Shown here: in pieces, positions 23,268 through 63,057 of the stretch
Layout: each line of letters opens with the position of its first letter
Numbering within the stretch: position 1 is the first letter of the stretch
NCBI GenBank assembly: GCA_027064085.1
Contig: JAMOQH010000126.1
Span: 27,898 to 91,897 of the forward strand
Source: a bacterium
Lineage (GTDB): Bacteria > UBP6 > JAFGXH01
Direction: 5' to 3'
DNA: 64,000 nucleotides
The notes under the pieces: generated by a model
The model's database searches: none
Told to the model about the DNA's origin: nothing
What the model saw: the letters and a program-made list of their open reading frames with translations, nothing else
Made by a program: the position numbers and the translations under genes

Positions 23268-25622
23268 ATGAAAATAGTTATATTGGTATTAATAAGTATA
23301 TTTTCGGTATTTTTATCTAGTTGTGGAGGAGATAATACTTCTAAAACTGAAAAAAAATGTGAGCCTGCGTGTCAGGAATGGAAAGCTTGTAATAATGGTC
23401 ACTGTGAGTTAAGGCTTGATAGATGTGATACCAATAAGGATTGTGAGGATAGAAATGATAATAAAATCAGTTGTAATACTGAACTACATGAATGTGTTAA
23501 AGAAAATGATACACCTATATGTACTGCAAATGAAAAAAGATGTAATGAAAATAAGCTAGAAACCTGTAATTTAGAGGGAACTGCATGGGATTTAACAGAA
23601 GATTGTGTTCAAGATAATAAAACTTGTGATATTGAAACTTTTACTTGTAAAGTAAAGCAAGATACTTGTATAGGTATGTCATTTGATACAATTGAGGTGA
23701 AGCGATATAAAAATGAGCTTATTGGTATTAATGGAGAGTATCAGTTAACAATAGGTTTTTATGATGCAGATTCTCCTGTTGGTGTATATGATTTAGGAGA
23801 AAGTAATAATAAAAACTATTCTACATGTAATCAGTGTACTACGGTTAGTAAATTTAATGGGGAAGAACTTGATAAAACATTTTTTCAAGTGTCTGGTTCT
23901 TTAGAAATAACTGAAGGTGATGGGAAAACCGGGGAATCAGTTGGAGAGATAACAAATATAAAATTAACAGAAGTTACTATAGAAGACGGAACATTTATTT
24001 CAACTTCCGTAGAAAATGGGGAATGTATTGAAATTGAGACAGGAGCACAATGGAAATGGAATACATTATGTACTCAAGGAAATAAAAGGTGTAATTCAGA
24101 CGATAATACAATTGAAGTTTGCCAAGCAGACCATTCATGGGCAGTTGAAACGGCTTGTTTAGAAACCGAAGAATGTACCATAGATGTTGATAATGGAATT
24201 TATTGTAAAGCTTCTTATTGTGTTGTTGGTGATAAAAGATGTAATGATAATGGTAATGTTCAAATATGCAAAGAAGACAATAATGGTAATTTTTGGGATA
24301 TATTTGAGAACTGTACAAATGGAACAGTTTGTGAAGATGTTGGTTTTACATGTGTTGAACCTCCTTGTACAAATGGGGATAAAAAATGTAATGCTGATAA
24401 TACAGGAGTAAAAACTTGTATAAATAATTCATGGGAAGAAGAATTATGTGCTATTGATAGTGGTGAAATATGTATGGGAACAGGAAGTTTGGTAACATGT
24501 GGGATACCATCATCAGATGCAAATTGGGTGAAAGTTAGTGCAAATAGTGTTCAGTCATGTGGGATAAAAAGTGTTGCTGGAGTGAACAAATTATATTGCT
24601 GGGGAACAGGAAGTTTTGGAAGACTCGGAAATGGAACTGATGAAAATAAATTAACTCCAACAGAAGTAAATATTACTGAAAATAGTGGCTGGACAGATGT
24701 TTCTGTTGGTGGATATCATGCCTGCGGATTAAAAAACGGCAAAATTTATTGCTGGGGTAAAAATGATAAAGGACAACTAGGAACGGGTAATTATACTGAT
24801 TCAAATATTCCTGTTGAAATTAGTGGAGATAATACCGGATATCTTGATGTAGAAAGTGGGGGATACCATAGTTGTGGTATTAAGGCAAATGGAAAATTAT
24901 ACTGTTGGGGTAGAAATGACAACGGGCAGATTGGCAATGATTCTCTTGATAATGTTACAACTCCTATTGAAATACCTGGAAATTGGATAAATGTTTCTTT
25001 AGGGGATAAGCATAGTTGTGGGATACAAGATATTAATGGAGTAAATACGCTTTATTGTTGGGGGTATAATTCTTATGGAAGGCTAGGTATAGATAGTGAT
25101 AGTGTAATAGAATTTAAAATACCACAGAAAGTTTATGGAACTAATGGTGATACACTAAATAAAGATTGGACTAGTGTTTATGTGGGGCATGATAGTAGTT
25201 GTGCAATTAAAACAACAGGTAAAATGTATTGTTGGGGGCATGGAAATAATCATAAATTAGGAACAGGAAATACTGATAATCAGCAAATACCAACTGAAAT
25301 TACTGGAGAAAACTGGGTTAGTGCGGGGATAGGTTACAGTCATATTTGTGGGATTAAAAATCTTAGTGGTGTTAAAACTGCTTTTTGCTGGGGTAAAGCT
25401 ACAAATGGAAGGCTAGGGCTTAATAGTGAAACTGAAATGAATACTCCTACTCAATTAACTTTAACTGGTTGGACTGAAATAACAGCAGGATTAAGCCATA
25501 CTTGTGGGATAAAAGAAGAAAATGGTGGTAAAATGCAATTATACTGTTGGGGAAAAGCTTCAAGTGGAAGATTAGGAACAGGTAATGAAGATGATAAATG
25601 GATTCCTGCTTTAATTCCTTAG
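23268..25622 (+). CDS. Cys-rich, RCC1-repeat surface lipoprotein
   Basis: The 784-aa product has a lipoprotein signal (FLSSC), a Cys-rich N-terminal half and a C-terminal RCC1-type beta-propeller (about residues 420-784). The N-terminal half holds four related modules of the pattern C..G.K(R)CN...C......W....C, for example CTQGNKRCNSDDNTIEVC. The propeller has seven blades, each with CGIK...LYCWG and G(R/Q)LG, so every blade carries two Cys likely to form a disulphide. One complete seven-bladed propeller is predicted. Proteins of this build are common on the surface of Myxococcota-like bacteria, with undefined binding roles. AGGAGG precedes the ATG. Confidence 0.9.
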   Translation: MKIVILVLISIFSVFLSSCGGDNTSKTEKKCEPACQEWKACNNGHCELRLDRCDTNKDCEDRNDNKISCNTELHECVKENDTPICTANEKRCNENKLETCNLEGTAWDLTEDCVQDNKTCDIETFTCKVKQDTCIGMSFDTIEVKRYKNELIGINGEYQLTIGFYDADSPVGVYDLGESNNKNYSTCNQCTTVSKFNGEELDKTFFQVSGSLEITEGDGKTGESVGEITNIKLTEVTIEDGTFISTSVENGECIEIETGAQWKWNTLCTQGNKRCNSDDNTIEVCQADHSWAVETACLETEECTIDVDNGIYCKASYCVVGDKRCNDNGNVQICKEDNNGNFWDIFENCTNGTVCEDVGFTCVEPPCTNGDKKCNADNTGVKTCINNSWEEELCAIDSGEICMGTGSLVTCGIPSSDANWVKVSANSVQSCGIKSVAGVNKLYCWGTGSFGRLGNGTDENKLTPTEVNITENSGWTDVSVGGYHACGLKNGKIYCWGKNDKGQLGTGNYTDSNIPVEISGDNTGYLDVESGGYHSCGIKANGKLYCWGRNDNGQIGNDSLDNVTTPIEIPGNWINVSLGDKHSCGIQDINGVNTLYCWGYNSYGRLGIDSDSVIEFKIPQKVYGTNGDTLNKDWTSVYVGHDSSCAIKTTGKMYCWGHGNNHKLGTGNTDNQQIPTEITGENWVSAGIGYSHICGIKNLSGVKTAFCWGKATNGRLGLNSETEMNTPTQLTLTGWTEITAGLSHTCGIKEENGGKMQLYCWGKASSGRLGTGNEDDKWIPALIP

Positions 25623-31410: not shown

Positions 31411-31781
31411 GTTATCTCCAAATAATTTAACCACTTTTAACATATAATAGATAAAAATGCAAAATTAATAAGAGTCTGCTTTTAAAAGATGTAGCACTTT
31501 TACTTGATTTATTATCCTACCCTTATAATTTCCAAAATCTTATTGTTTTATGCAATATTACTTAAATTTTAATATTTCCCCTTATTTTTCCTTGGAAAAT
31601 GCCATAAGAATAAGGCTACAATCTAAGTTTTTCTTAATTTATATCTGTAGTTGCACATTAGTTATATTGCTAATTTTAATTATGAAACAGTAAAATAGCA
31701 AATATTGTCAATCAATAGCCCCTAAATCTTGACTTTAATAACAAATCACAATATACTTTTATTATCTTTTTAGGTGTTGTT
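31411..31781. other. Intergenic region between the divergent TraB operon and the giant gene
   Basis: This 371-bp AT-rich stretch holds the leader of the TraB operon on one side and the giant-gene promoter (31729-31757) on the other. No open frame with a ribosome site, no RNA signature and no strong inverted repeat is visible in the middle part (about 31470-31720). Confidence 0.6.
31729..31757 (+). promoter_or_regulatory. Promoter of the giant DUF11-barrel gene
   Basis: TTGACT (31729-31734), 17 bp and TATACT (31752-31757), 24 bp before the ATG, with AGGTG as ribosome site. Confidence 0.7.
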
Positions 31782-34700
31782 ATGTTGAAATTATTAAATA
31801 AATTATATTTTTTTATACTATTACTAACTTTATTTTCTGTCAATATTTTTGCTATAGTTGAAGGGACTTATCCCGATAGTACAAATTTGAAAAAATATTC
31901 AGTATTTGGTTCTGTTGTAACAACAGGAAATACCATGATGGCTACAACTCCTCCAGGTAATGTAAATGACATATTACTTTCAGAAAGTAGTGGAGATTTA
32001 AAAAATATGCCTTTTGATGCTGAAATTGTATCTGCACATATTTTTTGGTCTGGATCTCTTGGGCCAAGTTTGTTTGTACCAGATGACAATATAACACTTT
32101 TAACTAAAGATAATGATATTCATAATATTCAAGCTGATAGTTGTAAAGTTGTTACAAATATGGAAGGCTTTTATTATTGTTCTGCAGATATAACTACAAC
32201 TATTGTTAATCAAAATATTGTAAATTACAATGGTCGTTATACTGTTAGTAATTTAAAGGGAGATGTTGGAGATTGCGAAACGAATCCATATATTTGCCAA
32301 GCAAAATATGCTGCATGGAGTATGGTTGTTGTTTATAAGTCTAAGAGTGCAAAGGTAAAAAGGGAAATCTTACTTTATGATAGTTTTTTACATTTAGATG
32401 AAAGAGAAGATAGTATAGGTATAACTCATTTTGATATTACAAATTTAACAGTAAATAGCCCTGCAAGAGGAGAATTTACTTATTTTGGCCTCGAAGGAGA
32501 CAGGTTTTTAGGTGTTCCTCCTCAAGATGCTCCTGAAAATCAATATCCATGTGACACTTGTTATGATTTTATATCATTAAACAATGTAAAATTATACGAT
32601 GATTTAAATCCTCCTAACAATATATGGAACTCATCTATTGCAACTGCTGTAGATATAGATACTTTTAAAATTGGAAATCAAGGTTTAAATATTTTAAGAA
32701 GTGGAACCAATAAGACTATACATGTGAAACTTGGAAGTGGTGATGGAATTATTCCGAATGAACACCCTGAAGCAGGTGGAGGAGAATCTGTATTTTTAGG
32801 TTATGTGTTGCTTGCTCTTGATACAATTTCGCCTAATTTTAGAACAACTAATACAAATTTGATTGTTGATAGAACGGTTGCGTCTCAAGGAGATGAATTA
32901 ACTTATATTTTAACAGTTACTAATGATGGTTCTAAAATTGCTCATAATGTAATTGTTTCTAATCTTATTCCTCCTGAAACAACTTATGTGGATAATTCAA
33001 CTTATATAGATGGAGTACTTGCAAGTAACGATATTGCTACTCCAATGGGATTAAATATTGGCACTATAGATTTTAGAGGCACAAATAATAAAAAAATTAT
33101 TACTTTTAGAGTAAAAATAAAGTCTACTGCTATTGATGGAACTTATGTTTATAATAAAGCAAAAATTATAAGTGATGAAACAATCAATGACCCAAGTTTA
33201 ACAAATCAAGTTAAAACATTAATAAATGCTCCAGTATTACAAACTCCAATATTAACAGTTAGAGACGAAAATGGAGGAAGTTATTTACCTGGAGAATGGG
33301 TAGAGTATAGTGTTAAAATTTTAAATAATAGCAATAATCCTATATCAAATTTAGTTTATGAAAATACTTTAGGTCTTGATTTTACTCAAATAATGCTTAG
33401 CTCTATTCCTTTTAATGCAAGCGATAACTCAAATTTAGCAAACAAAAAAATAAGTATTTCATCAATTCAAGTTCCTGCAAGAAGTGCTATTTTTATTAAA
33501 TATAGAGCTAAAATTAAAACAATACAAGAATATATTGATTCTGGTACGCCAGAAGATCAAATAAACAATAAAAGTATCTCTAATCAAGGAGAACTATCTA
33601 TTTCAACAAGGCCAGAACTTATACTTACAGATAATGACAATGGTGGAAATGAGCATGATCCAACGGTATTTACTATAAAAAAAGAAGTAAATGCGAATTT
33701 TTCTGATTCAACTATGACAGTTGAAAATACTAATGGAAGTAGTGAATTTCATCCTGGAGATAGAGTTAAATATACTATAAAAGTTAAAAATTCAGCAACA
33801 GCAACAGTTAATGCTATAAATGTATTAAATGACATAGATGAAAATTATTTTGAGGAAATTACCGTTAATAATGGTTTTTATGATGGGGATAAATTAACAT
33901 GGCTCATAGCTTCCTTAGCTCCAAGTGCAGAAACAACATTAATTTTTACTGCAAAAATTAAAAAGCCACAAGCTAATGGACTTGTTATTCAAAATCAAGC
34001 AAGTATTTTTGTTGCAGGACGCTCAGATTTAACAGATGATCCAACAACTACCATTTTAGATGATCCAACTAAGTTTACAATTACAGCAAGTTCATCAAAT
34101 TTTATATTTTCAACTAAAGAAGTAATAGATGAAAATGGAGGAACTTATTTTCAACAAGGAGATTATGTTACTTATGTTATAAAAATTAAGAATACAGGCG
34201 AAGCCGTAGGGGGAAATTTAACCGTAGAAGATTCAATTAATAGTAATCTTGTCGATATAGAGGTATTTAATAATGGAGTTTATAATAATAATAAAATAAC
34301 TTGGAATTATATCAATACCCCAGAATTAGTAAATGTATCAGGCGAAGTTACTCTTAAATTTAGAGCAAAAATCAAAAGTACAGTAGCAAATGGTACTGTA
34401 ATATCAAATCAAGCTTTTATTAGTTCTACAGACAGTCCTAGAACATATTTAACAGACGATCCAACAACTTCTAGTGTAAGTGATAGTACAAATTTTACTG
34501 TTAACTCAGCTGCAGAATTAACAGAATCATATAAAACCTACGAAGATTTAAATGGTGGTGATATAGAGCCAGGCGATGAGATAAAATATACTATTCAGTT
34601 AAGAAATACAGGTAACTTAGAAGTTACAAATATCTCTGTTATTGATAATGTAGATACAAATAATCTTGAAAATATTATAGTGGAAGATAATGGAATTTAT

Positions 34701-37700
34701 AGTAATGGCAACATAAATTGGGCAGGTATTACTAGTCTTGCTCCACATACAAATTTAGAACTACATTTTACGGCTAAAATAAAAGAAAACACTACTCATA
34801 ATACAAAGATATCAAATCAAGCTATAATTATGAGTACAGAAATACCATTTGCATTCACTGATGATCCAAATACAGCAGAAAAAGACGATGCAACTAGCTT
34901 TTTAGTTATGGCAATTCCTGATTTGTCTTTTACTAAAACAGTTGTAAATACAAATGGAACTACAGAATTTAAAATAGGTGATAGAGTAAAATATACCATT
35001 AATATAGTAAATAATTCTTCTTCTGAAACTGGAAATATAACAATTACAGATTTAATACCTCGTGATTTAGAAAATGTAACTCTTTCAAGTGGAGGAATAC
35101 TAAATGGTAATCAAGCATATTTTTATTTACAACCTATAACTTCTCCTATAGCTTTAACTATAGAAGGTGATATTAAAGCTAGTGGTGAAATATGTAATCA
35201 AGCAAGCCTTGAAGATGTGAATTTTAATTATACTATTAACTCTGACGATCCTAATACCTTAAGTGAAAATGACAGTACTTGTTTTAATGTTATACAAGTT
35301 ATAAAAGTTGAAAATTTCAAAAAAACATTTACAGATATCAATGGTGGTAATATAGAACCTAATGATATTATTGAATATGAATTAAGTTTTGACAATAATA
35401 GTGATGTAAGTTTGAACAATTTGGTTATTACAGATAATATTGACACTAATTTAACAGATATAAACTTAATAGATGGTGGATATTTTAACGGAAATATTAT
35501 TACATTTAATTCTTTAAATACTCCTAAATTAGCAAATATTGCTCCAAACACTAGTGTTATTATTAAATTTAGGGCAAAAATTAAAACTCCACTTGCAAAT
35601 AATACTGTTATTTCAAATCAAGCAGAATTAAACATTGAAGATATTAACTTAGTTTCTGATAATCCTAATACTCCTATTGAAAATGATGCTACAGAGTTTA
35701 ATATTGTTTCTTCTCCTAAAATAAAATTTACTAAAGTTGTTAAAAATGTAAATAACTCAACAGAATATAAACCAAATGATAATGTCATGTATACTATAAC
35801 TGCTTTAAATACAGGTACAGAAATAGCAAATAACATACTAATAAAAGATATATTAAGTAATGATTTAACTAATTTATCAGCATCTCAAGGTAGTTTCAAT
35901 AATAACGAATTTACATTAAATTTACCTCAATTAAATGTAAATCAACCTATAACTATAACAATTAATGCAAAAATCAAAGATAGCGTTAGTAATAATACAG
36001 TAATTTCAAATCAAGCTTCTTTAGATAGTGATAATACTAATCAAATACTTTCTGACGATTCTGATACCCCTATTGCTAATGACCAAACTAAATTTACTGT
36101 AACTAGAGAAACTTTGCCTACAAATTTAAAAGCTTATAAAACTAGTGATAAAAAAATATATTTTAATAATGATATAGTAACTTATACCATAGAGCTTAAA
36201 AATGAAGGGCAAACTACCGTAAATAATATTATTTTAACTGATGAATTAAATAGTAACTTAGAATTTATTTCTGCAACAAATAATGCAGTATTTACTAATG
36301 GAGTAATAAAATGGGATTACAATACTAGCCCTGATTTGCTGTCTATTATGCCTAATAACTCGGTAAATATTACTATAAAAGCAAAAGTAAAAAATACTGT
36401 TAGTGATTCTACTATTATAGAAAATCAAGCAAGCTTTACATTTAACAATGAGCCTGAAATTCACCTTACTGACGACCCTAGTACTCCACAATTCGATACA
36501 ACTAAAATTACTGTTGCTAGTTATGATGTTTCTGATTCAACAAAAGAGGTTTTTGATTCTAATAATGATGGTGCATTTGTTCCAAATGAGGAGTTAACAT
36601 ATAAAATTACTATTAAAAATAGCTCCAGTATTACAACAATTAGAGATATAAATGTAGTTGACTATTTTCCATTTTCAAAACTAGATTTATTGGATACTAC
36701 CGGTTTAATTATCAATGAAACAAGTAAAACTATTACTTTTACTCCAGAAAATTTTCCTGAATTACTAGAATTAGCTCCTAATACTAGTGTAGAACTTATA
36801 TTAAGGGCAAAAATTAAAGATTTAGCCACAAATGGAACTACAATAAGTAATCAAGCATTTATTTCATTTAATGGAGAAAATCAAAATATTCCAACAGATG
36901 ATCCTAAAACTACTGATATAGATGATGCAACTAATTTTAAACTTTCTGCAAAAGCAGATTTATCAGATTTTACTAAAACAGTAGCATCAGATAATGGATA
37001 TTTTCCTAATGAAGAAATCAGATATACCATTAAAGTTAAAAATAAAGGAACCGCAAAAGCTAAAAACTTAATAATTACCGATTCTATAGATGATAATCTT
37101 GAAATTATAGATGCTCAAGAAGGTGAAATAACAGCTAATAAAATATTGTTTCACTATAATAACATTGATACATTAAAAGAGTTAAAGTCAAATGAAGAAG
37201 TGTCATTTGTTATCAAAGCAAAGATAAAAGATGGAGTAAATAACAATAAAATAATATCTAATCAAGCTATACTTAATTCTGAATCAATTCCTAATTCAGA
37301 GCTTAGCGATGACCCAACTACTACCCAAGAAAATGATGCTACTATATTTAAAGTAATTAATTCCTCTAAATTATATGCAGAAAAGATAGCAATAGATTTA
37401 AATGCGGGTAAAATAGAAATTGGCGATATAATAAGATATCAAATAAAAGTATATAATAAAGGTTACAAAACATCTTTTGATACCAAATTATACGATGAAA
37501 TTCCTTCTTATACTCAATATATAGAAAATTCAACAAAATTAAATGATGAAACTGTAGCTGACAATAACGGTGTTGCCCCTTTTATAGATGGAATGGATTT
37601 AGGAGATATAGATATTTATGATAATACAGATAATACCGTTAAAATAATTACTTTTGAAGTTAAAATACTTGATACTGCCCCTGATGGAGCTAAAATAGAA

Positions 37701-40700
37701 AATCAAGCAAGTATAGAAAATGCAGATGGAGAGAAAGCTGTTACTGATGATCCAAATACTAGTCAAGAAAATGATGCTACTGTAATTTATTTAGATGATA
37801 GCTCTTCTATTTTTAATAAATTTGATAAAACCGCAATACTTGAAGATACAAATAATAATGGTAAAGCAGATATAGGGGAGCTTATAAAATATCAAATAGA
37901 ATTAGATATTAAAGATTTGCCAGAAACTATTACTATAGAAGATGCAATACCACAAAATACTAACTATGTTTTTGGTAGTTTACAAGTAAATAGAATACAT
38001 CAAACAGATGAACAAGATACTGATATGGCATATTTTGAAAACAATAAAGCTTATTTTAAAATTTATCCTTTTGAAGATACTAATACTAAAGCTAGTCTTT
38101 CTTTTAAAGTAGAAATAAAAGAAGGAAATAAAGTTGTAAATCAAGCAAAAACATTTTTTGATAATAAAACTTATTTAAGCGATGACCCTAATACTCCTAT
38201 CAAAAACGATGCAACTATAACTTACATAGGAGATACACAAGAAGCTAATTTATCTATAAAAAAAGAAGTAAAAGATATTAATGGGGGCATTACTTTAGCA
38301 AACGACGAATTAGAATATAAAATTACTGTCCAAAATACTGGTAATAAAGAGGCTGAAAATAGTGAAATTATAGATGATTTACCTGAAAGTTTGGAGTATA
38401 TTTCTAATAGTGAAGAACTTTCTGATGTTTCTGCTCATTATATTTATAATCCTAATATAGGCAATGGACAAATCAAAATTTATGGATTGAATATAGACAA
38501 AGCTGGTAAATTTATTGTAAAATTTAGAGTTAAGATAAAAGATACTGTTCAAAAAGCTGATAAAATTACAAATATTGCAACTTTAAATAATGAAAAACAG
38601 AGTAGTGCTTCTGTAGTTATAGGAGCTAGTGCTGGAACAGCATCTATTTACGGAGATTTATCATATTTTAATGAAAATAATGAAAAAATAGCTCTAAAAA
38701 ACTATAAAATTGAAATAACAGAAATCAAAAAAGCAGAAAATCTAAAAGTTTATACTACTACAACAGATGAAGATGGTTTATTTAGAATTGATAATATCAA
38801 ACCTGCAGAATATTTATTAAAATATTATAATTCAAATGGTACTTTCTTTGGAGAGAAAAAATTAAATTATTTAAGTTCTGAAAACGATAACAAGCTCAAT
38901 CTTGTTTTTATTCCTACTGGTTTTATTTATAACTCTAAAACAAAATCCAAAATAGATAATGCAAGAATTTATTTATATAATAAAACAGCAAATGACAACA
39001 TAATTCATTCAAATTGTTTTGATTTAGACTTAGTTACTCTTCCTACAAATCAACAAGGTCAATTACTAGAAAGCAATGGTTTATATAAATTTACTGTTAA
39101 AGATACTAACTATGATAAGCTAGGTATATGTGTGATGGGATATCCAAAATATACTTTCCCTTCTAGCCTTAAAAAACCTTCTTTTGGTGAAGTTGAAAAT
39201 GAAAATGGACATATTTCTAATAATAAATATTATCTTGAATTTACTCCAACTGATAATTTAGACATTCTTAATAATAATAATATAGCTCTTGACCCAATTG
39301 AAAACTCAATTAAAATCACAAAGTCAGTTGACCAAAAAACTTCTACAGCAAATTCTATTATTACATATAGAATTAAAGCTCAAAATAAATCTAGCTATTC
39401 TTTTGAAGGAACAAATGGTGTTTTTATATATGATTTACTACCTAAAAACTTTAAGTTAATCAATAAATCATACAAAGCAATAATAACTAGCTTAGATGGA
39501 AGTCAAAAAGTAATAAAAGATATAGCTATTAATTTATCATCTCAAAATTTAACATTTGGTCCTATAGATTTTAAAGAAGGTGATGAGATAGAAATATCAT
39601 ATAGAGTTGCAATAGGTTCCAATGTTAAATTAGGTAAATATAAAAATATTGCCTATGTATTAGATAGTAATTTAGAAAAATTATCTTTTGAAGCTAGTGC
39701 TGTTATACAAATTAAATATGATTTTGATTTTGATATGGGAGCGGTAATAGGTAAAGTCTATTGTGATGACAATAAAAACTCATATCAGGATATAGGAGAA
39801 ATAGGTTTAAAGAATGTTGATATTTATAATGATGAAGGCTTTGTTTCTAAAACTGATGAATATGGAAGATACCACTTTACAGTATTAAAACCAGGGGCTC
39901 ATTTAATAAAATTAGATAAAAATACTTTATTATCAGGAATAAAACCTATTGAAGAAAAAAGAACTATAAGGATAACAAAAGGTTTATTATCAAAAGTAAA
40001 TTTCCCCGTTGATTGTAAAGAAGTAAATAAAGATAAAAAGTTTTTAGCTATAAATAAGAAAAAAGCTAAACTTAGCCCTATCAAGGATTTAATAACATTA
40101 AGGGGCAATTTAAATAAAAGAATCTTTTTGGGTAATAAAGAAATAACTGTAAAAAATTATATATTAAAACAAAATAAAAAATTAGTCACAGAAGATGAAG
40201 AAAATACTTATTTTATTAAAGATTTAAATGATAAAGTTTTAGTAAATTATTATATTTATAAATTTGATAAAGAATTATTTAGCAACAAAACTAAATTAAC
40301 AGATTTATATAGATTTATACAACAACGGGGTAAATTAAAGATAAAATTACCTGCAAATCAGTATCTTGTTTTTGCTGAAATAGTAAAAAATAATAAAATT
40401 TACAGAACTGCTCCTATAATTTCTATGTCTCAAAGAATACCAAATGAAAAGGGAGAAGGGTTAATAAGTTTTAAAAAGCTAAAATTTGAGTTTAATCCAC
40501 AATTATTTATTAATGGAAGGCTAATAAATAGCTCAAAATCAGGTAATCTATTTCATGTTTTTCATAAAGATAATCTAAAAAATGCCTCAATACTCTATAA
40601 AGCTCCTAATGGTATATCTGTAAATGAACTAATGGCTTTAGCTGTTAGTTCTAGTAAGAGTGTTGCTTCTCGTAATCATGTTAGTATTGATGGTATTGGT

Positions 40701-43700
40701 GCTAGTGTTATTGAAAATACTGAAGTCGGTGCTAGTGCTAGTTCAGCTTCAGCTGTTAGTGCTGGTAATAGTGTTAGTTCTGGTGCTAGCAATAGAGTTA
40801 GTGTTGGTGATAACAGTAATAGTATTAGTGATAGTAGTGGTTATTTGGATAAATTTTTATCTAAAAAAGATAAAAATGATATAAAAACTCAATATGATTC
40901 TTTTGGTGAAGATAGAATTACAAAAGAATTTGCTTCACAAATTAAAAAAGAACAGTACATTAAAAATTTTTATGGATTGAGGCTAGCTCTTCCTGTTGAG
41001 GGTGCAATTATTCATTCTGATTCTATAAATATACATGGATTTCAACCTGAAAATTATGAAATTACTATAAATAATAATAAAGTTATAGCAAATGCAGATG
41101 GCTATTTCGATTTAGAATTAAAATTGAGTAATAAAACTAAACAAATTATTGTAAAAGTTAAAGACAACAAAGGAAGGAAGGGTAAATTAACAAGAAATAT
41201 AAAAGTTGCTGATTTAAATTACTTTTTGATGGCTTTTGCTGATGGAACTATTGGCTACGATAAAGCACTTTTAGATGATACAAATTATAAATATCTACCA
41301 GATAGTAAAGTATTTGTTCAAGGAAAGGCTGTTTTATATTTTAAAGGTGGTGTAAAAGGTAAAACTCTACAAAAATATGTAGGCAAGTTTTTTAAAGAAT
41401 TAAAAGCAACTGCCCATATTGATACATCTAAAATGGAAGATTATGAAGAATTTTATACAAATTTAATAAATCCTGAAAGATTTTATCCTGTTTATGGTGA
41501 TAAATCAAAAGAAACTCAAGATATTAAATCTAGAGGAAAAGTTTATGTTAAAATAGACGCAGATAAATCAAGTATTTTGTGGGGTAATTTTAATACAATA
41601 ATACATAATTCTGATTTGGTAGAATATGATAAAACTTTATATGGTTTTGTTTTTGATTTTAATAAAAAAATAGGTGATTTAAAAAATAGAGCAACTGTTT
41701 TTTATAGTGGAGATAAATTAACATCTAGAATACTTTACAATGAATTTCAAGGAACTGGAGGTTCATTATATTACTTACAAAGTACTTTTATAAAAGAAGG
41801 TACTCAAAGAGTTAAAGTTATAGTTAGAGATAGAGATACAGGTATTGAGTTATACAAAAAAATACTTACTCTAAATGAAGATTATACTATTAATTATGCA
41901 ACAGGTACAATTTTATTAAAAGAGCCATTGCCTTCTTTTGTTAATAGCAATTATTTGACAAGCGGGAAACTAGAAGCTAATTCTTTACAAGGAAATCCTG
42001 TTTATTTGGCAATTTCATATCAAGCTGATACAAATTTTAATATTAATAGTAATTCTACAGTAGGATTTTCAGCAAAAGAAGAGTATAAAAATGTTTATAT
42101 TACTGGGCATGCAATAAAAGAAAATCGAAGCGTTGCTAGCAATAATAGTGATTACAGTTTAGCAGGAATGGGTATAGGTTATAAATTTGGTAAAGACAGC
42201 TATGTTTTTACAGAATTTGCTCATAGTTCAAATTATGATAATTTTAGCTTTGTAAGTGATGATGGAGGAATAACATTCAAGCCTATAGGAGAGGAGTATG
42301 CTAATGTAAGTGGTAATGCTTATTCTTTTAAAGCTCAATTGTCATTTAAGGATTTTAAATTAAATAATAAAATGTTAAATTCTATAGTTACAGTATTTAA
42401 TTATCAAAAAATGGATAGATATTTTTATAAAGTAGGTAATAGAGTAGGTAATGATCAAGGTGGAAATAAAATTTCATTAATATCTAAAATGGATATAGAT
42501 AAAAATAAAAAAATTAATTTAAAATATATAGGAGTTATTTCAAACTATGACTTATCAGCTACGGCTACAAATAAATTAAATAAGCATCAAGTTACTTTAA
42601 GTTATAGTCAACAAATAAATTCTAAAATATCATTTGCAATAGAGCATCAAGCTGGTTACATCTCTCAAAACCGAGAAGAAGATATAGAGCTTAATGTAAG
42701 CCCATTTAATGATAGTTTTTCTACGAATATAACATCTCTTCTTTATAGGCATCATGTACTAAAAGATTTAACTATAAGTTTGCAACAAGATATAATAGAA
42801 CAATATGATAAAAGGCTAACAGCTTTTACTATAGGAGATAGATTTACAACTGGTTTAGGTGCAGAATATCAGTTAACAAATGATATTGCTTTAACTGCTC
42901 TAGAAACGCTTAAGTTTTCTGGAGATAACTCAACTACAGCTGGGGTGAAATATAAAATAAATGAAACATCAAGTCTTTATTTAAATCAAAAGTGGATAAA
43001 AGAAGATAAAGGCTTATCTAATACTTTGTTAGGTGCAGAAACTTCATTAGGAGATGGGGGTAAATTATATGGAGAATATCAATTAAATCAAGAAATAAAC
43101 AACTCTCAAAACTCTCAAAATAGAGCATTAGTTGGCATAGGTAAAACTTATAAAATTAATGATAAATTATCTATTCAAGGTGGCTTAGAGCATACATATT
43201 ATAAAACGGCAACAACAGAAACTAAAAACAGGTCTGCAATATCGTTAGGCTTACAATTTCAGTTGCCTAAAGAGTTTATATTTTATACTAAACATGAAAT
43301 TAGATATGATAAGTTTGATGAAACGAAATTGCATTATACTACAACAAATGGAGCGGAGTATAATCTTGGAAGTGACTTAACACTAGTTTCAAAAGTTAAT
43401 TTTTATATTACAGAAAACATAGATGCAAATTTAACAGAAGCAAAAATGTCAGAAATTAGTTTAGGATTTGCATTTAGGCCTATAAGTTACGATTTCTTTA
43501 ATTTATTAGGGAAATATAGTCTTATTTCACAGTTAAGGCCACTATCTTTAAACGATAATTCTATTTATCAAGAATCGGCACATGTTATATCTTTAGCTGG
43601 TATATATGAAACTCCATTTAAGCTTGAATTAACAGAAAAAACAGTTTTAAAGTATGGTTTAGCATCAGAAAATAATACTAGTGATAATTTAGTTATGACT

Positions 43701-43946
43701 CTCCTATGGATAAATCGTTTGGCTTATCATATGATAGAGAAATTTGACATAGCTCTTGAATATAGATTAAGAAAAATGCTTAATTTTGATACTAATCAGG
43801 GCTTTTTAGTTGAAGGAGCTTATAAAATCAAAAAATACTTTTATTTAGGTATAGGATACAACTTTACATCATTTACAGATGATATATTCTATATGGATAA
43901 TGATGATGGAGGTGGATTTTTTGTAAGAATTAGTGGAAGTTTTTAG
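31782..43946 (+). CDS. Giant secreted DUF11-repeat protein with a C-terminal outer-membrane barrel
   Basis: The 4054-aa product has a signal peptide (to about 24), an N-terminal globular domain (about 30-350), and about 14 DUF11-type Ig-like repeats (about 365-2280). These show patterns like GD.(V/I)KYTI.(V/L)KN.G and ISNQA, and are joined by acidic DDPNT...NDAT.F linkers. Then come a CNA-B/carboxypeptidase-regulatory-like module (about 2285-2370), one more DUF11 repeat (about 2515), an SdrD-B-like module with IGKVYCDDNKN (about 2653), a Ser-rich segment (about 2952-3020), an Ig-like module (about 3070-3140) and a barrel-type region. The latter runs from about 3150 to the end, with WGNFNT and Arg/Tyr-rich strands, and ends VRISGSF. 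The barrel probably anchors a repeat stalk in the outer membrane, as an adhesin or surface-layer component. Function is inferred. Confidence 0.88.
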   Translation: MLKLLNKLYFFILLLTLFSVNIFAIVEGTYPDSTNLKKYSVFGSVVTTGNTMMATTPPGNVNDILLSESSGDLKNMPFDAEIVSAHIFWSGSLGPSLFVPDDNITLLTKDNDIHNIQADSCKVVTNMEGFYYCSADITTTIVNQNIVNYNGRYTVSNLKGDVGDCETNPYICQAKYAAWSMVVVYKSKSAKVKREILLYDSFLHLDEREDSIGITHFDITNLTVNSPARGEFTYFGLEGDRFLGVPPQDAPENQYPCDTCYDFISLNNVKLYDDLNPPNNIWNSSIATAVDIDTFKIGNQGLNILRSGTNKTIHVKLGSGDGIIPNEHPEAGGGESVFLGYVLLALDTISPNFRTTNTNLIVDRTVASQGDELTYILTVTNDGSKIAHNVIVSNLIPPETTYVDNSTYIDGVLASNDIATPMGLNIGTIDFRGTNNKKIITFRVKIKSTAIDGTYVYNKAKIISDETINDPSLTNQVKTLINAPVLQTPILTVRDENGGSYLPGEWVEYSVKILNNSNNPISNLVYENTLGLDFTQIMLSSIPFNASDNSNLANKKISISSIQVPARSAIFIKYRAKIKTIQEYIDSGTPEDQINNKSISNQGELSISTRPELILTDNDNGGNEHDPTVFTIKKEVNANFSDSTMTVENTNGSSEFHPGDRVKYTIKVKNSATATVNAINVLNDIDENYFEEITVNNGFYDGDKLTWLIASLAPSAETTLIFTAKIKKPQANGLVIQNQASIFVAGRSDLTDDPTTTILDDPTKFTITASSSNFIFSTKEVIDENGGTYFQQGDYVTYVIKIKNTGEAVGGNLTVEDSINSNLVDIEVFNNGVYNNNKITWNYINTPELVNVSGEVTLKFRAKIKSTVANGTVISNQAFISSTDSPRTYLTDDPTTSSVSDSTNFTVNSAAELTESYKTYEDLNGGDIEPGDEIKYTIQLRNTGNLEVTNISVIDNVDTNNLENIIVEDNGIYSNGNINWAGITSLAPHTNLELHFTAKIKENTTHNTKISNQAIIMSTEIPFAFTDDPNTAEKDDATSFLVMAIPDLSFTKTVVNTNGTTEFKIGDRVKYTINIVNNSSSETGNITITDLIPRDLENVTLSSGGILNGNQAYFYLQPITSPIALTIEGDIKASGEICNQASLEDVNFNYTINSDDPNTLSENDSTCFNVIQVIKVENFKKTFTDINGGNIEPNDIIEYELSFDNNSDVSLNNLVITDNIDTNLTDINLIDGGYFNGNIITFNSLNTPKLANIAPNTSVIIKFRAKIKTPLANNTVISNQAELNIEDINLVSDNPNTPIENDATEFNIVSSPKIKFTKVVKNVNNSTEYKPNDNVMYTITALNTGTEIANNILIKDILSNDLTNLSASQGSFNNNEFTLNLPQLNVNQPITITINAKIKDSVSNNTVISNQASLDSDNTNQILSDDSDTPIANDQTKFTVTRETLPTNLKAYKTSDKKIYFNNDIVTYTIELKNEGQTTVNNIILTDELNSNLEFISATNNAVFTNGVIKWDYNTSPDLLSIMPNNSVNITIKAKVKNTVSDSTIIENQASFTFNNEPEIHLTDDPSTPQFDTTKITVASYDVSDSTKEVFDSNNDGAFVPNEELTYKITIKNSSSITTIRDINVVDYFPFSKLDLLDTTGLIINETSKTITFTPENFPELLELAPNTSVELILRAKIKDLATNGTTISNQAFISFNGENQNIPTDDPKTTDIDDATNFKLSAKADLSDFTKTVASDNGYFPNEEIRYTIKVKNKGTAKAKNLIITDSIDDNLEIIDAQEGEITANKILFHYNNIDTLKELKSNEEVSFVIKAKIKDGVNNNKIISNQAILNSESIPNSELSDDPTTTQENDATIFKVINSSKLYAEKIAIDLNAGKIEIGDIIRYQIKVYNKGYKTSFDTKLYDEIPSYTQYIENSTKLNDETVADNNGVAPFIDGMDLGDIDIYDNTDNTVKIITFEVKILDTAPDGAKIENQASIENADGEKAVTDDPNTSQENDATVIYLDDSSSIFNKFDKTAILEDTNNNGKADIGELIKYQIELDIKDLPETITIEDAIPQNTNYVFGSLQVNRIHQTDEQDTDMAYFENNKAYFKIYPFEDTNTKASLSFKVEIKEGNKVVNQAKTFFDNKTYLSDDPNTPIKNDATITYIGDTQEANLSIKKEVKDINGGITLANDELEYKITVQNTGNKEAENSEIIDDLPESLEYISNSEELSDVSAHYIYNPNIGNGQIKIYGLNIDKAGKFIVKFRVKIKDTVQKADKITNIATLNNEKQSSASVVIGASAGTASIYGDLSYFNENNEKIALKNYKIEITEIKKAENLKVYTTTTDEDGLFRIDNIKPAEYLLKYYNSNGTFFGEKKLNYLSSENDNKLNLVFIPTGFIYNSKTKSKIDNARIYLYNKTANDNIIHSNCFDLDLVTLPTNQQGQLLESNGLYKFTVKDTNYDKLGICVMGYPKYTFPSSLKKPSFGEVENENGHISNNKYYLEFTPTDNLDILNNNNIALDPIENSIKITKSVDQKTSTANSIITYRIKAQNKSSYSFEGTNGVFIYDLLPKNFKLINKSYKAIITSLDGSQKVIKDIAINLSSQNLTFGPIDFKEGDEIEISYRVAIGSNVKLGKYKNIAYVLDSNLEKLSFEASAVIQIKYDFDFDMGAVIGKVYCDDNKNSYQDIGEIGLKNVDIYNDEGFVSKTDEYGRYHFTVLKPGAHLIKLDKNTLLSGIKPIEEKRTIRITKGLLSKVNFPVDCKEVNKDKKFLAINKKKAKLSPIKDLITLRGNLNKRIFLGNKEITVKNYILKQNKKLVTEDEENTYFIKDLNDKVLVNYYIYKFDKELFSNKTKLTDLYRFIQQRGKLKIKLPANQYLVFAEIVKNNKIYRTAPIISMSQRIPNEKGEGLISFKKLKFEFNPQLFINGRLINSSKSGNLFHVFHKDNLKNASILYKAPNGISVNELMALAVSSSKSVASRNHVSIDGIGASVIENTEVGASASSASAVSAGNSVSSGASNRVSVGDNSNSISDSSGYLDKFLSKKDKNDIKTQYDSFGEDRITKEFASQIKKEQYIKNFYGLRLALPVEGAIIHSDSINIHGFQPENYEITINNNKVIANADGYFDLELKLSNKTKQIIVKVKDNKGRKGKLTRNIKVADLNYFLMAFADGTIGYDKALLDDTNYKYLPDSKVFVQGKAVLYFKGGVKGKTLQKYVGKFFKELKATAHIDTSKMEDYEEFYTNLINPERFYPVYGDKSKETQDIKSRGKVYVKIDADKSSILWGNFNTIIHNSDLVEYDKTLYGFVFDFNKKIGDLKNRATVFYSGDKLTSRILYNEFQGTGGSLYYLQSTFIKEGTQRVKVIVRDRDTGIELYKKILTLNEDYTINYATGTILLKEPLPSFVNSNYLTSGKLEANSLQGNPVYLAISYQADTNFNINSNSTVGFSAKEEYKNVYITGHAIKENRSVASNNSDYSLAGMGIGYKFGKDSYVFTEFAHSSNYDNFSFVSDDGGITFKPIGEEYANVSGNAYSFKAQLSFKDFKLNNKMLNSIVTVFNYQKMDRYFYKVGNRVGNDQGGNKISLISKMDIDKNKKINLKYIGVISNYDLSATATNKLNKHQVTLSYSQQINSKISFAIEHQAGYISQNREEDIELNVSPFNDSFSTNITSLLYRHHVLKDLTISLQQDIIEQYDKRLTAFTIGDRFTTGLGAEYQLTNDIALTALETLKFSGDNSTTAGVKYKINETSSLYLNQKWIKEDKGLSNTLLGAETSLGDGGKLYGEYQLNQEINNSQNSQNRALVGIGKTYKINDKLSIQGGLEHTYYKTATTETKNRSAISLGLQFQLPKEFIFYTKHEIRYDKFDETKLHYTTTNGAEYNLGSDLTLVSKVNFYITENIDANLTEAKMSEISLGFAFRPISYDFFNLLGKYSLISQLRPLSLNDNSIYQESAHVISLAGIYETPFKLELTEKTVLKYGLASENNTSDNLVMTLLWINRLAYHMIEKFDIALEYRLRKMLNFDTNQGFLVEGAYKIKKYFYLGIGYNFTSFTDDIFYMDNDDGGGFFVRISGSF

Positions 43947-54556: not shown

Positions 54557-55582
54557 ATGACTGAGAAGAGATTAATTAAGTCATTAACAGAAAATAAAAT
54601 ACTTTTTAAAGCTTATATTAAACTTATGGGAGATGCATCTACAAGAGTTTATTATAGAATATCCCTTGAGGATAATTTTACATCAGAAAAAACTTTTATT
54701 GCCATGGTTTTACCTCAAAAAGTAGAAGTTAATGAAAAAGGAAATACTTCATTTATAAAAGAAGAACCATTTATAAATCTACATCGATATTTAATAAAAT
54801 CAGACCTAAATATTCCTGAAATATATTTGAATGATGAAATGAATAGAGTTGTTCTATTAGAAGATTTAGGTGATTTAACTTTATATAAGTTAATAAATGC
54901 AGAAAATAGAAATGATTTAGAAAATAAATATAAAAAAGCTATTGATGAGCTAATTATTTTTCAAAACTATACACTTAACAATGAAAATAATGATGTTTAT
55001 GCTTTTAAAAGAAGTTTTGATAAAGATACTTTAAAGTGGGAGCTTGAGCATTTTGTAGAATGGCGTTTAAATAAAGGTGTAGGTATAAAACTTTCTGAAA
55101 ATAACATGAAAATTATAGATAGATATTTTGAGGATATTGTTAAAAAGTTAATTAAATTACCTCAAATTATTGTTCATAGAGACTATCAATCTAAAAATAT
55201 AATGATTAAAGACAATAAATATTATTTAATAGATTTTCAAGATGCTTTAATTGGTTCTTATGTATATGATCTTGTTGCACTATTAAAAGATTCTTATGTG
55301 GAGCTTAGTGAAGATTTTGTTATAAATATTCTAAAATACTATATAAAAAAGAAAAAAGAAAAATCAAATATAGAGTATGATTTTAATAAATTATATGAAG
55401 ACTTTAAATTGCAAGCAATACAAAGAAAACTAAAAGACACAGGAAGATTTCATTTTATTGATATTGTCAGAAATAATTCCTCCTTTTTGGAGTATTTACC
55501 ATTAAGTAAAAGGTATGTTAGAGATTATTTAATAGATTTATATCCTGAATTATATGAAATTTTTCAAGATGCTTTAAAATAA
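54557..55582 (+). CDS. AmgK-type anomeric sugar kinase / aminoglycoside-phosphotransferase fold
   Basis: The 341-aa product has the small-molecule kinase fold with GDASTRVYYRIS (nucleotide loop), VVLLEDLGDLTLY, the catalytic loop VHRDYQSKNIMI and IDFQDALIGSYVYDLVALLKD with the metal Asp. This pattern matches the COG3178 group including Pseudomonas AmgK, which phosphorylates MurNAc/GlcNAc at the anomeric carbon for cell-wall recycling. The MurU nucleotidyltransferase that normally accompanies AmgK is not adjacent, so the substrate is unconfirmed. Drug resistance is not implied. The 3' end overlaps the convergent metalloprotease gene by 9 bp. Confidence 0.8.
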   Translation: MTEKRLIKSLTENKILFKAYIKLMGDASTRVYYRISLEDNFTSEKTFIAMVLPQKVEVNEKGNTSFIKEEPFINLHRYLIKSDLNIPEIYLNDEMNRVVLLEDLGDLTLYKLINAENRNDLENKYKKAIDELIIFQNYTLNNENNDVYAFKRSFDKDTLKWELEHFVEWRLNKGVGIKLSENNMKIIDRYFEDIVKKLIKLPQIIVHRDYQSKNIMIKDNKYYLIDFQDALIGSYVYDLVALLKDSYVELSEDFVINILKYYIKKKKEKSNIEYDFNKLYEDFKLQAIQRKLKDTGRFHFIDIVRNNSSFLEYLPLSKRYVRDYLIDLYPELYEIFQDALK

Positions 55583-58447
55583 AGATGTAAATTCTAAGTA
55601 ATATTGATTATCACCTCCTGAGTTTAATCCTTTTGCATATCCTAATGATAAATTATAAGGTTGAAAATATCCTATTAAAAATTGCATAGTTAATTCAATT
55701 CCTAAACCCTGTTTTATATTTAATTTATATAAAGTATCCGTAATATTGGCCATATCATAAAAAAACCTTAAGTAAAATTTATGTATATAAAAGGGAAGTG
55801 TTGAGTAACCAAATTTTGAGTAAAATAAGTGTTGTCTGTATTCCAAGTTTAATAAGTTTAAAGTACTTGCCCTAAAGGCATCTTGTGGATATCCTCTTAA
55901 ATATACTCCTCCTATAGCGGTTCTATCTATAAGTTTATCAGTGATTGTTCCATAATGAGGATATCCTCCGATATACTGTTTGCTTATTCCACCTTCAGAC
56001 ATATTTAAGGATAAGTTATAAGAAAGAGCAAATGCTCCTGAAAGTATTTCAATCGGAAGATAATTTTTATAAGATATTGCAAATATGATACTATTGTAAG
56101 TTGCAAATAATTCTTTATCTCTAAAGCTAATTCTTAAATTAAATCTTTCACCACTTGATATACTTGGAGTTGTAATTAAGTATTGAGTGTCTGCATAAAA
56201 ATAACCAAGTGAAAATATAAATTTATCTGATTCTTCAGGTAGTTTTGGTGGCTTATCCCATGGTTTAAATTCATAATTAAATTTAGGGGTAGAAAAGTAT
56301 CTATTTGATGCTGAAAAATAAATTTGACTGCTTCCATCGCTGTTATAAAAAGGGATTGATGTCGTTAGTGAGAAAGTATGGTATTGTGCATTAAACTTTG
56401 TTTTTTTACCATCAATTAAAAGGGTATCTGAGACAAGAGGAGTGTAGGAATATCCTAGTGAATAATATAAAAAATTTGAATTGTCTGAAAAATAAATTGC
56501 AAATAAAAAATCTTTTATGTCAAAAACATAATTTGCAAAAATTGAATAAAAGTAATATTCTCTAACATCGTTATTGCTAATTTCTAAGCCTATGTTATTT
56601 TCAAAGTTTCCTGTTGTAATTTGTGGCATTATATTTTTAGGTAAAATTTCTGGGAATATAGAGAAATCTATTTTTTTATAATTTGCTTTTTTATTGTTTG
56701 CTAAAAACAGTAATTCCTTATCTTTTAAAGAGTCATATATTTTTTTATTTATTAAATCCTTCTCTTTTATTAAAATTATTTCAAAACCATTATCTTTTTG
56801 ATACCTTAATGCATAAAACTCTTTTTGTTTTTTATTGTATATTATTTTGGTGATTCCTGTGAAAAAATTTGTTTTTTTAGTAATTTGATTAGTGGTTAAA
56901 TTGTATTCATAAATGTTTAATATATCATCTTCTTTATCTGATATAAAGTATATTTGTTGATTAGTATAAATAGGTGATATGTCAAAATTATCATCTTTTA
57001 TAATTGTAGTTAGTTTTTTAGTTTTTAAATTTAGAGTTGCGATATTCCATAATTTATTATTTTGATTTATTGAGAATAAAAGTTTGTTTTTATTTATAAA
57101 GTTTATCTCTCCTATTGTAGTTAAGGTTTTAAAACGAGTTACTTTATTTAACTTTTTAGTTTTCAAGTTATACAAGTAAATATTTTCAATACCATAGTTA
57201 TTTACAACTAGTGCTACGGTATAATTTGCGGGATTAAACTTAAAGTTTATAACTCTTAAATTATTAATTTCTATTTTAGAATTTGTTTTATCTAAATTTA
57301 TTGAACTAAGTCTTTTTTCTGTTCTGTTTCCTTTTATTTTATATGAAATATAATATAATTTATTATCAAGAACTTCAAAATTAGATAAACTGTCATTAAA
57401 TTTCATTATTTTTTTTAATTTTTTATTTTCAGGATTGTATTGGTATAAATAAGATATATTTTCAGGGCCTCCGCTTAATATATATAAATTGCCATTGTCT
57501 GCAAGAGCCATATTTAAAATGTTTTTACTTTTATTTTTTTTGATATTATTACAAATAGGGATATAATACTTTTTATCTTTTAGTATTCTTTTAAATTTAG
57601 TGATTTTGTGTTTTTGTATTTTTAAACGGAGTTTTTTAAATTTATTTCTATAATATTTTATAAATTTTTTATATAATTGTGTAAATGTTTTACCATTTGA
57701 ATTTTTTAAGGCTGTGTTGATTCCATAGGGAATAATTTTATCTCCATAATTTTTGGTAAATTTAGAAATTCCTGAAAAATTATAGTCATACTTAAAAATG
57801 TAATCTATAAAAAATGCCCCATATAAATAAACCATTCCTCCATAAGGATATTTAGAGCTTTGATTAGATAATTCAGAAAGAGAAATGTCATTATTTAAAA
57901 TGCTAGTTCTAAACATCATTTTGTAAAGAGGAGAATTTAATCGTCCTCTTTGAGTTCCAAGAGATTCAAAATAAACAGCTAAACCTTCTGTAATAAATTT
58001 AGGAAAAACTTGATTTGGTGCCATTAGTTTTCCAAAAACCGAATTTATTATTTTAGGTGTATTTCCTTTTTTATCTATGTGAACAATGTGCAAGTATTCA
58101 TGTAGCACTAAAAGATATAGCCAATTGTCATAATATCCAAGTACTGATGTTGCTTCAGGAGGATAGGGGAATATGTGTATCAAATTGTATGGTATAACTC
58201 TAGCAAAACCGTTTGCATCATCTATGGAGTCAGAAATAACCACATTAGTTAATTGAGGTTGGTTTTTTACGGCTTTAGTTAACCAAGAGTTAATTTCTAT
58301 TAGGTATTTTATTGTTTTTTTAGCGATATAAGTATTTTTTTCTTCATAATGAACTTTAAAGTGTTTAGATTGAAGAGTTTTCCATCTTTCTGAAAATATA
58401 TTTGTAGATGTAAATATTATGATTATAATTAATAAAGTTTTATTCAA
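55574..58447 (-). CDS. Zinc metalloprotease - beta-propeller - outer-membrane barrel fusion protein
   Basis: The 957-aa product has a signal peptide (about 1-18) and a gluzincin-type protease domain (about 20-270) with the HExxH motif in LVLHEYLHIVH and the third zinc ligand Glu in FITEGLAVYFES. A TolB/WD40-like propeller follows (about 300-600, repeats such as IYFISDKEDDILNIYEYNLTT). The C-terminal barrel-type region (about 640-957) contains YIGGYPHYGTI, YLRGYPQDAF and the ending YYLEFTSLF, resembling the BamA/surface-antigen fold. It is probably a surface- or periplasm-facing protease anchored in the outer membrane. The start overlaps the small membrane-protein gene by 8 bp. Confidence 0.85.
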   Translation of the reverse strand: MNKTLLIIIIIFTSTNIFSERWKTLQSKHFKVHYEEKNTYIAKKTIKYLIEINSWLTKAVKNQPQLTNVVISDSIDDANGFARVIPYNLIHIFPYPPEATSVLGYYDNWLYLLVLHEYLHIVHIDKKGNTPKIINSVFGKLMAPNQVFPKFITEGLAVYFESLGTQRGRLNSPLYKMMFRTSILNNDISLSELSNQSSKYPYGGMVYLYGAFFIDYIFKYDYNFSGISKFTKNYGDKIIPYGINTALKNSNGKTFTQLYKKFIKYYRNKFKKLRLKIQKHKITKFKRILKDKKYYIPICNNIKKNKSKNILNMALADNGNLYILSGGPENISYLYQYNPENKKLKKIMKFNDSLSNFEVLDNKLYYISYKIKGNRTEKRLSSINLDKTNSKIEINNLRVINFKFNPANYTVALVVNNYGIENIYLYNLKTKKLNKVTRFKTLTTIGEINFINKNKLLFSINQNNKLWNIATLNLKTKKLTTIIKDDNFDISPIYTNQQIYFISDKEDDILNIYEYNLTTNQITKKTNFFTGITKIIYNKKQKEFYALRYQKDNGFEIILIKEKDLINKKIYDSLKDKELLFLANNKKANYKKIDFSIFPEILPKNIMPQITTGNFENNIGLEISNNDVREYYFYSIFANYVFDIKDFLFAIYFSDNSNFLYYSLGYSYTPLVSDTLLIDGKKTKFNAQYHTFSLTTSIPFYNSDGSSQIYFSASNRYFSTPKFNYEFKPWDKPPKLPEESDKFIFSLGYFYADTQYLITTPSISSGERFNLRISFRDKELFATYNSIIFAISYKNYLPIEILSGAFALSYNLSLNMSEGGISKQYIGGYPHYGTITDKLIDRTAIGGVYLRGYPQDAFRASTLNLLNLEYRQHLFYSKFGYSTLPFYIHKFYLRFFYDMANITDTLYKLNIKQGLGIELTMQFLIGYFQPYNLSLGYAKGLNSGGDNQYYLEFTSLF

Positions 58448-62460: not shown

Positions 62461-63045
62461 TTATCTTCCTTGAAGTTTTTTAACAACTAATTTAGCAATA
62501 CCTTTTAGTGTTTCAAATACACCATCTCCACTAGCTGCAGACGCTTTGAATACAGGAAAATGATATGGGTTGAGTTCAGCATTTAATTCTTTTAAGTCTA
62601 TAATATTTGGTAAATCCATTTTATTATATTGAATAACAGTAGGAATATCTTTTATATTGTATCCATATTCAGCTAAGTTATCAACAAGATTGTCCATGCT
62701 TTCTAGGTTAGCATCATATCTTGGCTCTTGAACATCTGAAACAAAAACAATACCATCAACTTCTTTTAGGATTAATTTTCTGCTTGCATTATAAAAAACC
62801 TGTCCTGGAACAGTATAAAGATGTAATTTCGTTTCAAATCCATTAATTTTGGCGACTTCAATAGGTAAAAAGTCAAAAAATAAAGTTCTATCAGCTTCGG
62901 TAGCTAATGAAACCAAGCTTCCTTTTCTTTCTTTATTTGTTTTATCATAAATATATTGTAAGTTGGTTGTTTTACCACAAAGCCCAGGCCCATAGTAAAC
63001 AATCTTTAAATTTATGATTCTACTTGCATAATTTATAAGTGGCAT
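62461..63045 (-). CDS. mglA: MglA polarity-switch GTPase
   Basis: The 194-aa small Ras-like GTPase closely resembles Myxococcus MglA. Landmarks are YYGPGLCGKTTNLQYIYDKT (P-loop), TEADRTLFFDFLP, LYTVPGQVFYNASRKLIL with the MglA-type replacement of the G3 DxxG Asp, and QYNKMDLP (G4). MglA sets cell polarity for gliding and type IV pili and is turned off by the MglB GAP. Here mglB lies 12 bp upstream. The degree of motif match is very high. Confidence 0.95.
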   Translation of the reverse strand: MPLINYASRIINLKIVYYGPGLCGKTTNLQYIYDKTNKERKGSLVSLATEADRTLFFDFLPIEVAKINGFETKLHLYTVPGQVFYNASRKLILKEVDGIVFVSDVQEPRYDANLESMDNLVDNLAEYGYNIKDIPTVIQYNKMDLPNIIDLKELNAELNPYHFPVFKASAASGDGVFETLKGIAKLVVKKLQGR

Positions 63046-63057
63046 ATTAATCCTTTA

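Follow-up and report, generated by a model that had tools for sequence, protein, structure and literature searches.

A single gene in the 64,000-nucleotide stretch of bacterial DNA that we analysed (hereafter, the window) joins a long stalk of DUF11 repeats to a predicted giant outer-membrane barrel, and hundreds of genomes carry this unnamed barrel beside or fused to stalks, often mislabelled as a TonB-dependent receptor. The sequence evidence strongly supports treating stalk and barrel as one unit. We consider it probable that the protein is a self-anchoring fibrillar surface protein, with the stalk exported through its own giant barrel and the base held in the periplasm; its most likely function would be that of an adhesin or a cell-cell contact fibre. 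Together, barrel and fibre look like an undescribed and widespread means of exporting and anchoring surface fibres. Neither the DUF11 (CLIPPER) stalk domain nor the concept of adhesins anchored by a barrel is new. No description of the barrel was found in full-text open-licence papers, a scope that could miss subscription work. Because split versions of the system occur in the culturable Kangiella spongicola, Rhodanobacter glycinis and Sinorhizobium meliloti T073, these proposals are testable now.

One gene for stalk and barrel

The gene is one uninterrupted ORF with an ATG start and no internal stop (Table 1), as a preliminary description of the window, which reported a single 12.2-kb gene, had it. 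Other parts of that description stand as well: the N-terminus reads by eye as a Sec signal peptide, the 'about 15' DUF11 repeats are 15 when counted with a profile built here, and the C-terminal region ending VRISGSF is predicted as a large beta-barrel, although its start moves from residue 3150 to ~3145. The reported CNA-B/SdrD-B-like modules are recovered by Pfam as SdrD_B (E = 3.8e-8, next to E = 5.8e-96 for DUF11, PF01345) and as a CarboxypepD_reg-like module that, like the Glucodextran_B match, lies below the Pfam cut-off. NCBIfam adds RrgB-type isopeptide domains (isopeptide-type fimbrial domains). All 11 DUF11 matches in the genome fall inside this gene, and no other DUF11 gene was found there. 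The gene looks monocistronic; its upstream neighbour, a TraB-family gene, lies on the opposite strand, and smpB, which follows, comes with a perfect promoter-like site of its own. Complete fused ORFs in several genomes argue against an assembly artefact: L004, from an independent genome, shares the architecture (4458 aa), as do complete ORFs of Myxococcota and Bdellovibrio.

Table 1. Features of the 4054-aa gene (positions in the window)
Feature	Positions	Strand	Basis
Whole gene, one ORF for head, DUF11 stalk, base and predicted outer-membrane barrel	31782..43946	+	ORF and translation
Promoter-like site TTGACT-N17-TATACT, 24 bp 5' of the ATG	31729..31757	+	Consensus scan, 10/12, which does not speak for function
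Putative signal peptide, residues ~1-24	31782..31853	+	By eye
N-terminal 'head' domain, residues 25-362, without a Pfam family	31854..32867	+	Identity to relatives; AlphaFold2
DUF11 (CLIPPER) repeats 1-14, residues 366-2274	32877..38603	+	Pfam and custom profile
Cna-B/carboxypeptidase-regulatory-like module, residues 2308-2347	38703..38822	+	CarboxypepD_reg, under curated cut-off
DUF11 repeat 15, residues 2521-2631, opening the conserved base	39342..39674	+	Profile; order kept in relatives
SdrD_B-like base module, residues 2658-2713	39753..39920	+	Pfam; relatives
Stalk/barrel joint, including a low-complexity Ser/Ala/Gly stretch	39921..40958	+	Position matches OmpA/SPOR domains of relatives
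Ig-like domain (Glucodextran_B-like), residues 3066-3142, directly before the barrel	40977..41207	+	Pfam, below cut-off; AlphaFold2
Predicted giant barrel, ~42 strands, residues 3145-4052	41214..43937	+	AlphaFold2 model; loop alternation
81-residue insert between strands 8 and 9, periplasmic side, containing VRDRDTG...DYTINYATG	41751..41993	+	AlphaFold2; loop analysis
C-terminal Phe, at the typical barrel-assembly signal position	43941..43943	+	Last residue aromatic in 90 of 98 barrel homologs

Structure prediction of the C-terminal region, the check proposed in the preliminary description, returned a barrel; neither a non-barrel fold nor a known transporter family with unrelated DUF11 emerged. 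The AlphaFold2 model (residues 3060-4054, from an alignment of 63 sequences) has a pLDDT of 84.2 and a pTM of 0.79, with 42 long strands counted after the Ig-like domain. A single up-down meander that starts and ends on the periplasmic side should alternate between short periplasmic turns and outer loops. Putative periplasmic connections had a median of 3.5 residues and putative outer ones of 7 (p = 7e-4), their length SDs over 63 relatives were 0.5 and 2.65, respectively (p = 3e-4), and 15 of 17 untied connection pairs were in the expected order, in what is a consistency test of the topology that partly depends on the prediction, the strands being taken from the model and the alignment being the model's own. 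Each half of the later barrel kept this short/long phase. The sole long periplasmic connection, the insert after strand 8, is conserved in length across the family.

No family in Pfam or NCBIfam matched the barrel above cut-off, and its profile found no meaningful relative among PDB sequences, where the whole protein gave weak matches only (E ≥ 0.04). Foldseek ranked SprA, BtuB, SlpA, MtrB and LptD best with similar E-values, and the TM-scores to all known barrels were low (≤0.28), so this is general barrel resemblance only, from which kinship does not follow. The barrel matches of a VIA fold search were mostly 16- to 18-strand porins (Z 12-13.6), again a general likeness; SprA was absent among the best 50, which excludes nothing. 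The porin alignments, spanning model residues 85 to 995, suggest that the modelled barrel is closed. The usual barrel formula, with an assumed shear number, gives a backbone diameter of ~75 Å for 42 strands and 64 Å for 36. According to a 2023 review, the 36-strand SprA is the widest single-polypeptide barrel known (PMC10418385). If the prediction is true, a single-chain barrel wider than SprA would extend the known limit of barrel size and point to a way of exporting domains that are already folded and cross-linked.

Other genes of the window encode a giant flagellin (10562-13552, minus strand; 996 aa) with normal N and C ends and an insert of ~770 residues, a CHASE2 domain fused to a guanylate/adenylate cyclase (7453-10434, minus strand; 993 aa), and a 784-aa lipoprotein-like protein with seven RCC1 repeats (23268-25622, plus strand). 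A 957-aa protein (55574-58447, minus strand) has a HEYLH metalloprotease-like motif, a propeller-like middle and a barrel-like C-terminus, matches no significant Pfam family, and is possibly another fusion of soluble domain and barrel. At 62461-63543 (minus strand), an MglA-like small GTPase adjoins a Roadblock/LC7 protein; in myxobacteria, such a pair controls gliding and polarity.

Distribution of the barrel and its stalks

The architecture is not confined to this gene. A profile-based scan of GTDB contigs found at least 525 barrel relatives in Myxococcota, Bdellovibrionota, Pseudomonadota, Nitrospirota, Campylobacterota, Omnitrophota and other phyla. These were found only after the window barrel had been aligned with plasmid homologs; the same contigs scanned with the window sequence alone gave no relative. 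The plasmid homologs themselves were tblastn matches with 21-24% identity and E-values down to 2e-52, nine of them spanning at least 80% of the query, mainly from alpha-, beta- and gammaproteobacteria. Barrel relatives aligned over their full length share 22-25% identity, with E-values down to 1e-52. A search against phages with the barrel found no match. Among 28 genomes of the host phylum, the barrel occurred in only three, all of the window's family, which make up the entire class among the genomes examined.

Stalk and barrel are either one polypeptide or tight neighbours. Among 101 loci, the barrel was fused to a long stalk in 28 and separate in 48, another 22 being cut or unclear and the last three short excerpts from the window's family. 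In Myxococcota and Bdellovibrio the barrel is fused to a DUF11 stalk, as in the window, and most Pseudomonadota encode the stalk separately, in the gene immediately 5' of the barrel. Plasmid records usually show the barrel as a gene of its own (~1150-1400 aa), directly 3' of a DUF11/SdrD_B stalk gene. Stop and start codons overlap by exactly 4 nt in 23 of the 43 split loci that have a long ORF upstream, a count in which a few ORFs may start later, and several stalk and several barrel N-termini of split systems look by eye like signal peptides. Wherever the context was complete, the stalk gene adjoined or was fused to the barrel in most loci.

In a tree of the barrels, the window pairs with its relative and then lies near a long-branch Bdellovibrio sequence (support 94), within a clade of fused forms, mostly from Myxococcota, that has full support. 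The other side of the tree holds mostly split Pseudomonadota, with the fused L060, L078 and L063 nested within. Since fused forms are nested among split ones, the joint has arisen or been lost repeatedly, as one would expect for two cooperating parts. The claim that stalk and barrel belong together is thus borne out across the family.

Apart from stalk and barrel, no gene is conserved throughout the family. In one clade, a gene of 430-490 aa with weak FecR and Glucodextran_B-like Ig domains lies 3' of the barrel (just downstream in L043, L048-L052 and L071; also L037) and possibly encodes a signalling partner. In Eleftheria, a CHASE2/FecR pair lies directly upstream of the stalk gene. Three genomes also encode proteins of ~700 aa that repeat the pre-barrel Ig-like domain several times in tandem (G000:C106 at ~7900-9225, G001:C244 and G002:C197).

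Stalk, base and head

Few surface repeats are as common in bacteria and archaea as DUF11 stalks; to our knowledge, their export and anchoring in Gram-negative cells are mostly not understood. Read by eye, 12 of the 15 repeats contain a putative Lys-Asp-Asn isopeptide triad, and repeats 4-14 would each have its residues, the triad being defined as for 9IFR in PMC12617251. That study renamed DUF11 as CLIPPER and reported that the Lys-Asn isopeptide bond gives resistance to heat and protease.

The stalk modules are interchangeable. Besides DUF11, the same barrel goes with 16 Calx-beta repeats (L069), 16 SdrD_B repeats (L061) or seven Big_1/invasin-D3 repeats (L076), and Calx-beta forms also occur fused (L041 and L038). 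The base is more constant: in many relatives the last DUF11 is followed by SdrD_B, and often by OmpA, before the barrel, and where stalk and barrel are split, SdrD_B is conserved as the stalk protein's C-terminal module. OmpA domains are placed C-terminally in some stalk proteins (L090, L010 and L069), N-terminally in some barrel proteins (L007, L070, which has the only SPOR domain seen, L081, L089 and L097) or, in fused forms, between stalk and barrel (L023, L025, L044, L078 and L099). OmpA and SPOR domains bind peptidoglycan, and the stalk/barrel joint of these relatives is therefore periplasmic. Pfam detected neither domain in the window protein, and its closest relative likewise lacks a detectable OmpA domain.

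The head domain is better conserved than the barrel. It shares 64% identity with its closest relative (G001) and 41-44% with heads of Myxococcota and Bdellovibrio, whereas the barrels in the same comparisons share 45% and 27-29%. In a rapidly evolving adhesin tip this would be unusual, which counts against our preferred explanation. Searches against Pfam and PDB sequences matched the head to no family, and a search against plasmids found no match. Its AlphaFold2 model (pLDDT 74, pTM 0.80) was closest in Foldseek to PNGase F, with an E-value of 5e-6 but a TM-score of 0.26, and the best VIA match had Z 7.1; together they would fit a generic beta-sandwich or jelly roll.

A head profile matched all 28 genomes of the phylum, at 1-10 places per genome. 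In the 25 genomes G003-G027, most of the proteins with this domain are in frames of 600-1150 aa (for example, L126 5771-8905 on the minus strand, L127 955-4188 and L124 602-2467). The four that we read (~620-1080 aa) have a C-terminal tail different from that of the window protein, and at least three have a weak DUF11-like match. By eye, three of the four have a C-terminus made of a Cys, hydrophobic residues and then basic ones, which looks like a signal for sortase-like sorting to the surface. These proteins suggest that the head is a surface module, carried in the window's family by a stalk with a barrel anchor.

Probable export of the stalk and comparison with known systems

We propose that Sec would carry the protein into the periplasm, as the signal peptide implies, and that the C-terminal region would insert into the outer membrane as one barrel of ~42 strands with both ends predicted to be periplasmic. 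The SdrD_B base and the Ig domain would stay in the periplasm as an anchor, as the OmpA and SPOR domains of relatives support, while the 15-domain Ig-like stalk would pass out through the barrel and hold the conserved head at a distance of ~60 nm. Folded, cross-linked domains could fit through so wide a pore but not through the 12-strand pore of an autotransporter. Pseudomonadota would build the same machine from two adjacent genes, and the window's lineage, Myxococcota and Bdellovibrio from one polypeptide. The preliminary description had left open whether the stalk is exported through its own barrel or held in the periplasm. The joint now appears to be periplasmic, and the stalk most likely crosses the membrane, because 15 domains should be too long for a normal periplasm and because the head also occurs on proteins with other anchors.

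Of the explanations that compete with export through the barrel, the most plausible, though we think it unlikely, is that the barrel only anchors the fibre, being filled or plugged, and that export takes another route, such as BAM assembly or another secretion system. Other fused proteins are known to pass with the help of BAM, which favours this explanation, as do the 81-residue periplasmic insert, which in the model could be a plug, and the absence of any export partner or energy source conserved beside the genes. However, the stalk of split systems is a separate Sec protein that cannot use the folding of the barrel's own chain, and ~42 strands are needless for a plain anchor. We give a much smaller chance to a periplasmic ruler, in which the stalk would stay inside, connecting the outer-membrane barrel with either the inner membrane or peptidoglycan. 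It is true that the joint lies in the periplasm and often binds peptidoglycan, but a usual periplasm of 20-30 nm is far shorter than 15 Ig-like domains (~60 nm), and the stalk genes of relatives reach 18.6 kb. The stalk modules are, moreover, typical of surface adhesins (PMC12617251; relatives with Calx-beta, SdrD_B and Big_1/invasin-D3).

Least probable of all is a nutrient receptor, with the barrel as a TonB-dependent receptor and the stalk as an accessory binding protein. That name was given to several relatives on plasmids by automatic annotation, Foldseek similarity is moderate with BtuB among the best matches, and in Phyllobacterium sp. 628 (L019, plasmid positions 7149-14727) the barrel gene is followed by genes for a siderophore-interacting protein, exbB, exbD and tonB. 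However, none of the other annotated loci that were read showed such neighbours, the TonB plug and barrel profiles (PF07715 and PF00593) matched neither the window protein nor five barrel-only relatives, and TonB-dependent receptors have 22 strands, about half the number predicted here, where a stalk is also fused or adjoining.

Returning to export through the barrel, we tentatively raise a broader proposal, which we hold with less confidence than that for the window protein itself: a widespread dedicated system in which a single-chain barrel of ~42 strands, larger than SprA, would export folded, isopeptide-locked fibres of interchangeable repeats on a peptidoglycan-bound base, made from two co-translated genes or as one self-exporting polypeptide. 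There is a real chance that this is a separate class of export system.

The preliminary description called the protein somewhat like an autotransporter but lacking a recognisable classic autotransporter barrel. The second part agrees with our searches, as no autotransporter (type 5a; PF03797, E ≤ 1), intimin, Omp85 or TonB-receptor profile matched the window protein; Omp85/POTRA was also without a match in the five barrel-only relatives scanned. The first part holds for the order of the parts, since type 5a autotransporters also have an N-terminal passenger and a C-terminal barrel in one chain, but not for the barrel, which is much larger here. Type 5b two-partner secretion places passenger and barrel in adjacent genes, like our split loci; however, the barrels of both types have 12 or 16 strands rather than ~42. 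Intimin and invasin (type 5e) pair an Ig-like stalk with an outer-membrane barrel, and their Big_1/invasin-D3 repeats recur in some relatives here, yet their barrel is N-terminal and precedes the passenger, whereas ours is C-terminal and far larger.

Closer in size is SprA, the 36-strand translocon of type 9 secretion (PDB 6H3I and 8GL6; PMC10994853), likewise a very large single-chain barrel tied to the export of surface adhesins. SprA gave the top Foldseek matches (E = 1.1e-6), but its TM-score was only 0.14-0.19 and BtuB was nearly as good, a likeness without demonstrated kinship, and the SprA_N profile (PF14349) had no match in the window protein at E ≤ 1. SprA has more than 2000 residues, whereas 42 strands are predicted here from ~995, with the stalk fused or co-encoded. 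For the stalk, the nearest known system is the CLIPPER adhesin of Acinetobacter silvestris (B9T28_05395, PDB 9IFR; PMC12617251). Both proteins have a tandem DUF11 stalk with Lys-Asp-Asn triads, an N-terminal non-stalk region and a C-terminal envelope anchor, and the OmpA-like base of that adhesin is common among relatives of the window protein. The anchor described there is the OmpA-like domain, with no barrel mentioned, whereas here a predicted giant barrel follows the base, either fused to it or encoded by the next gene.
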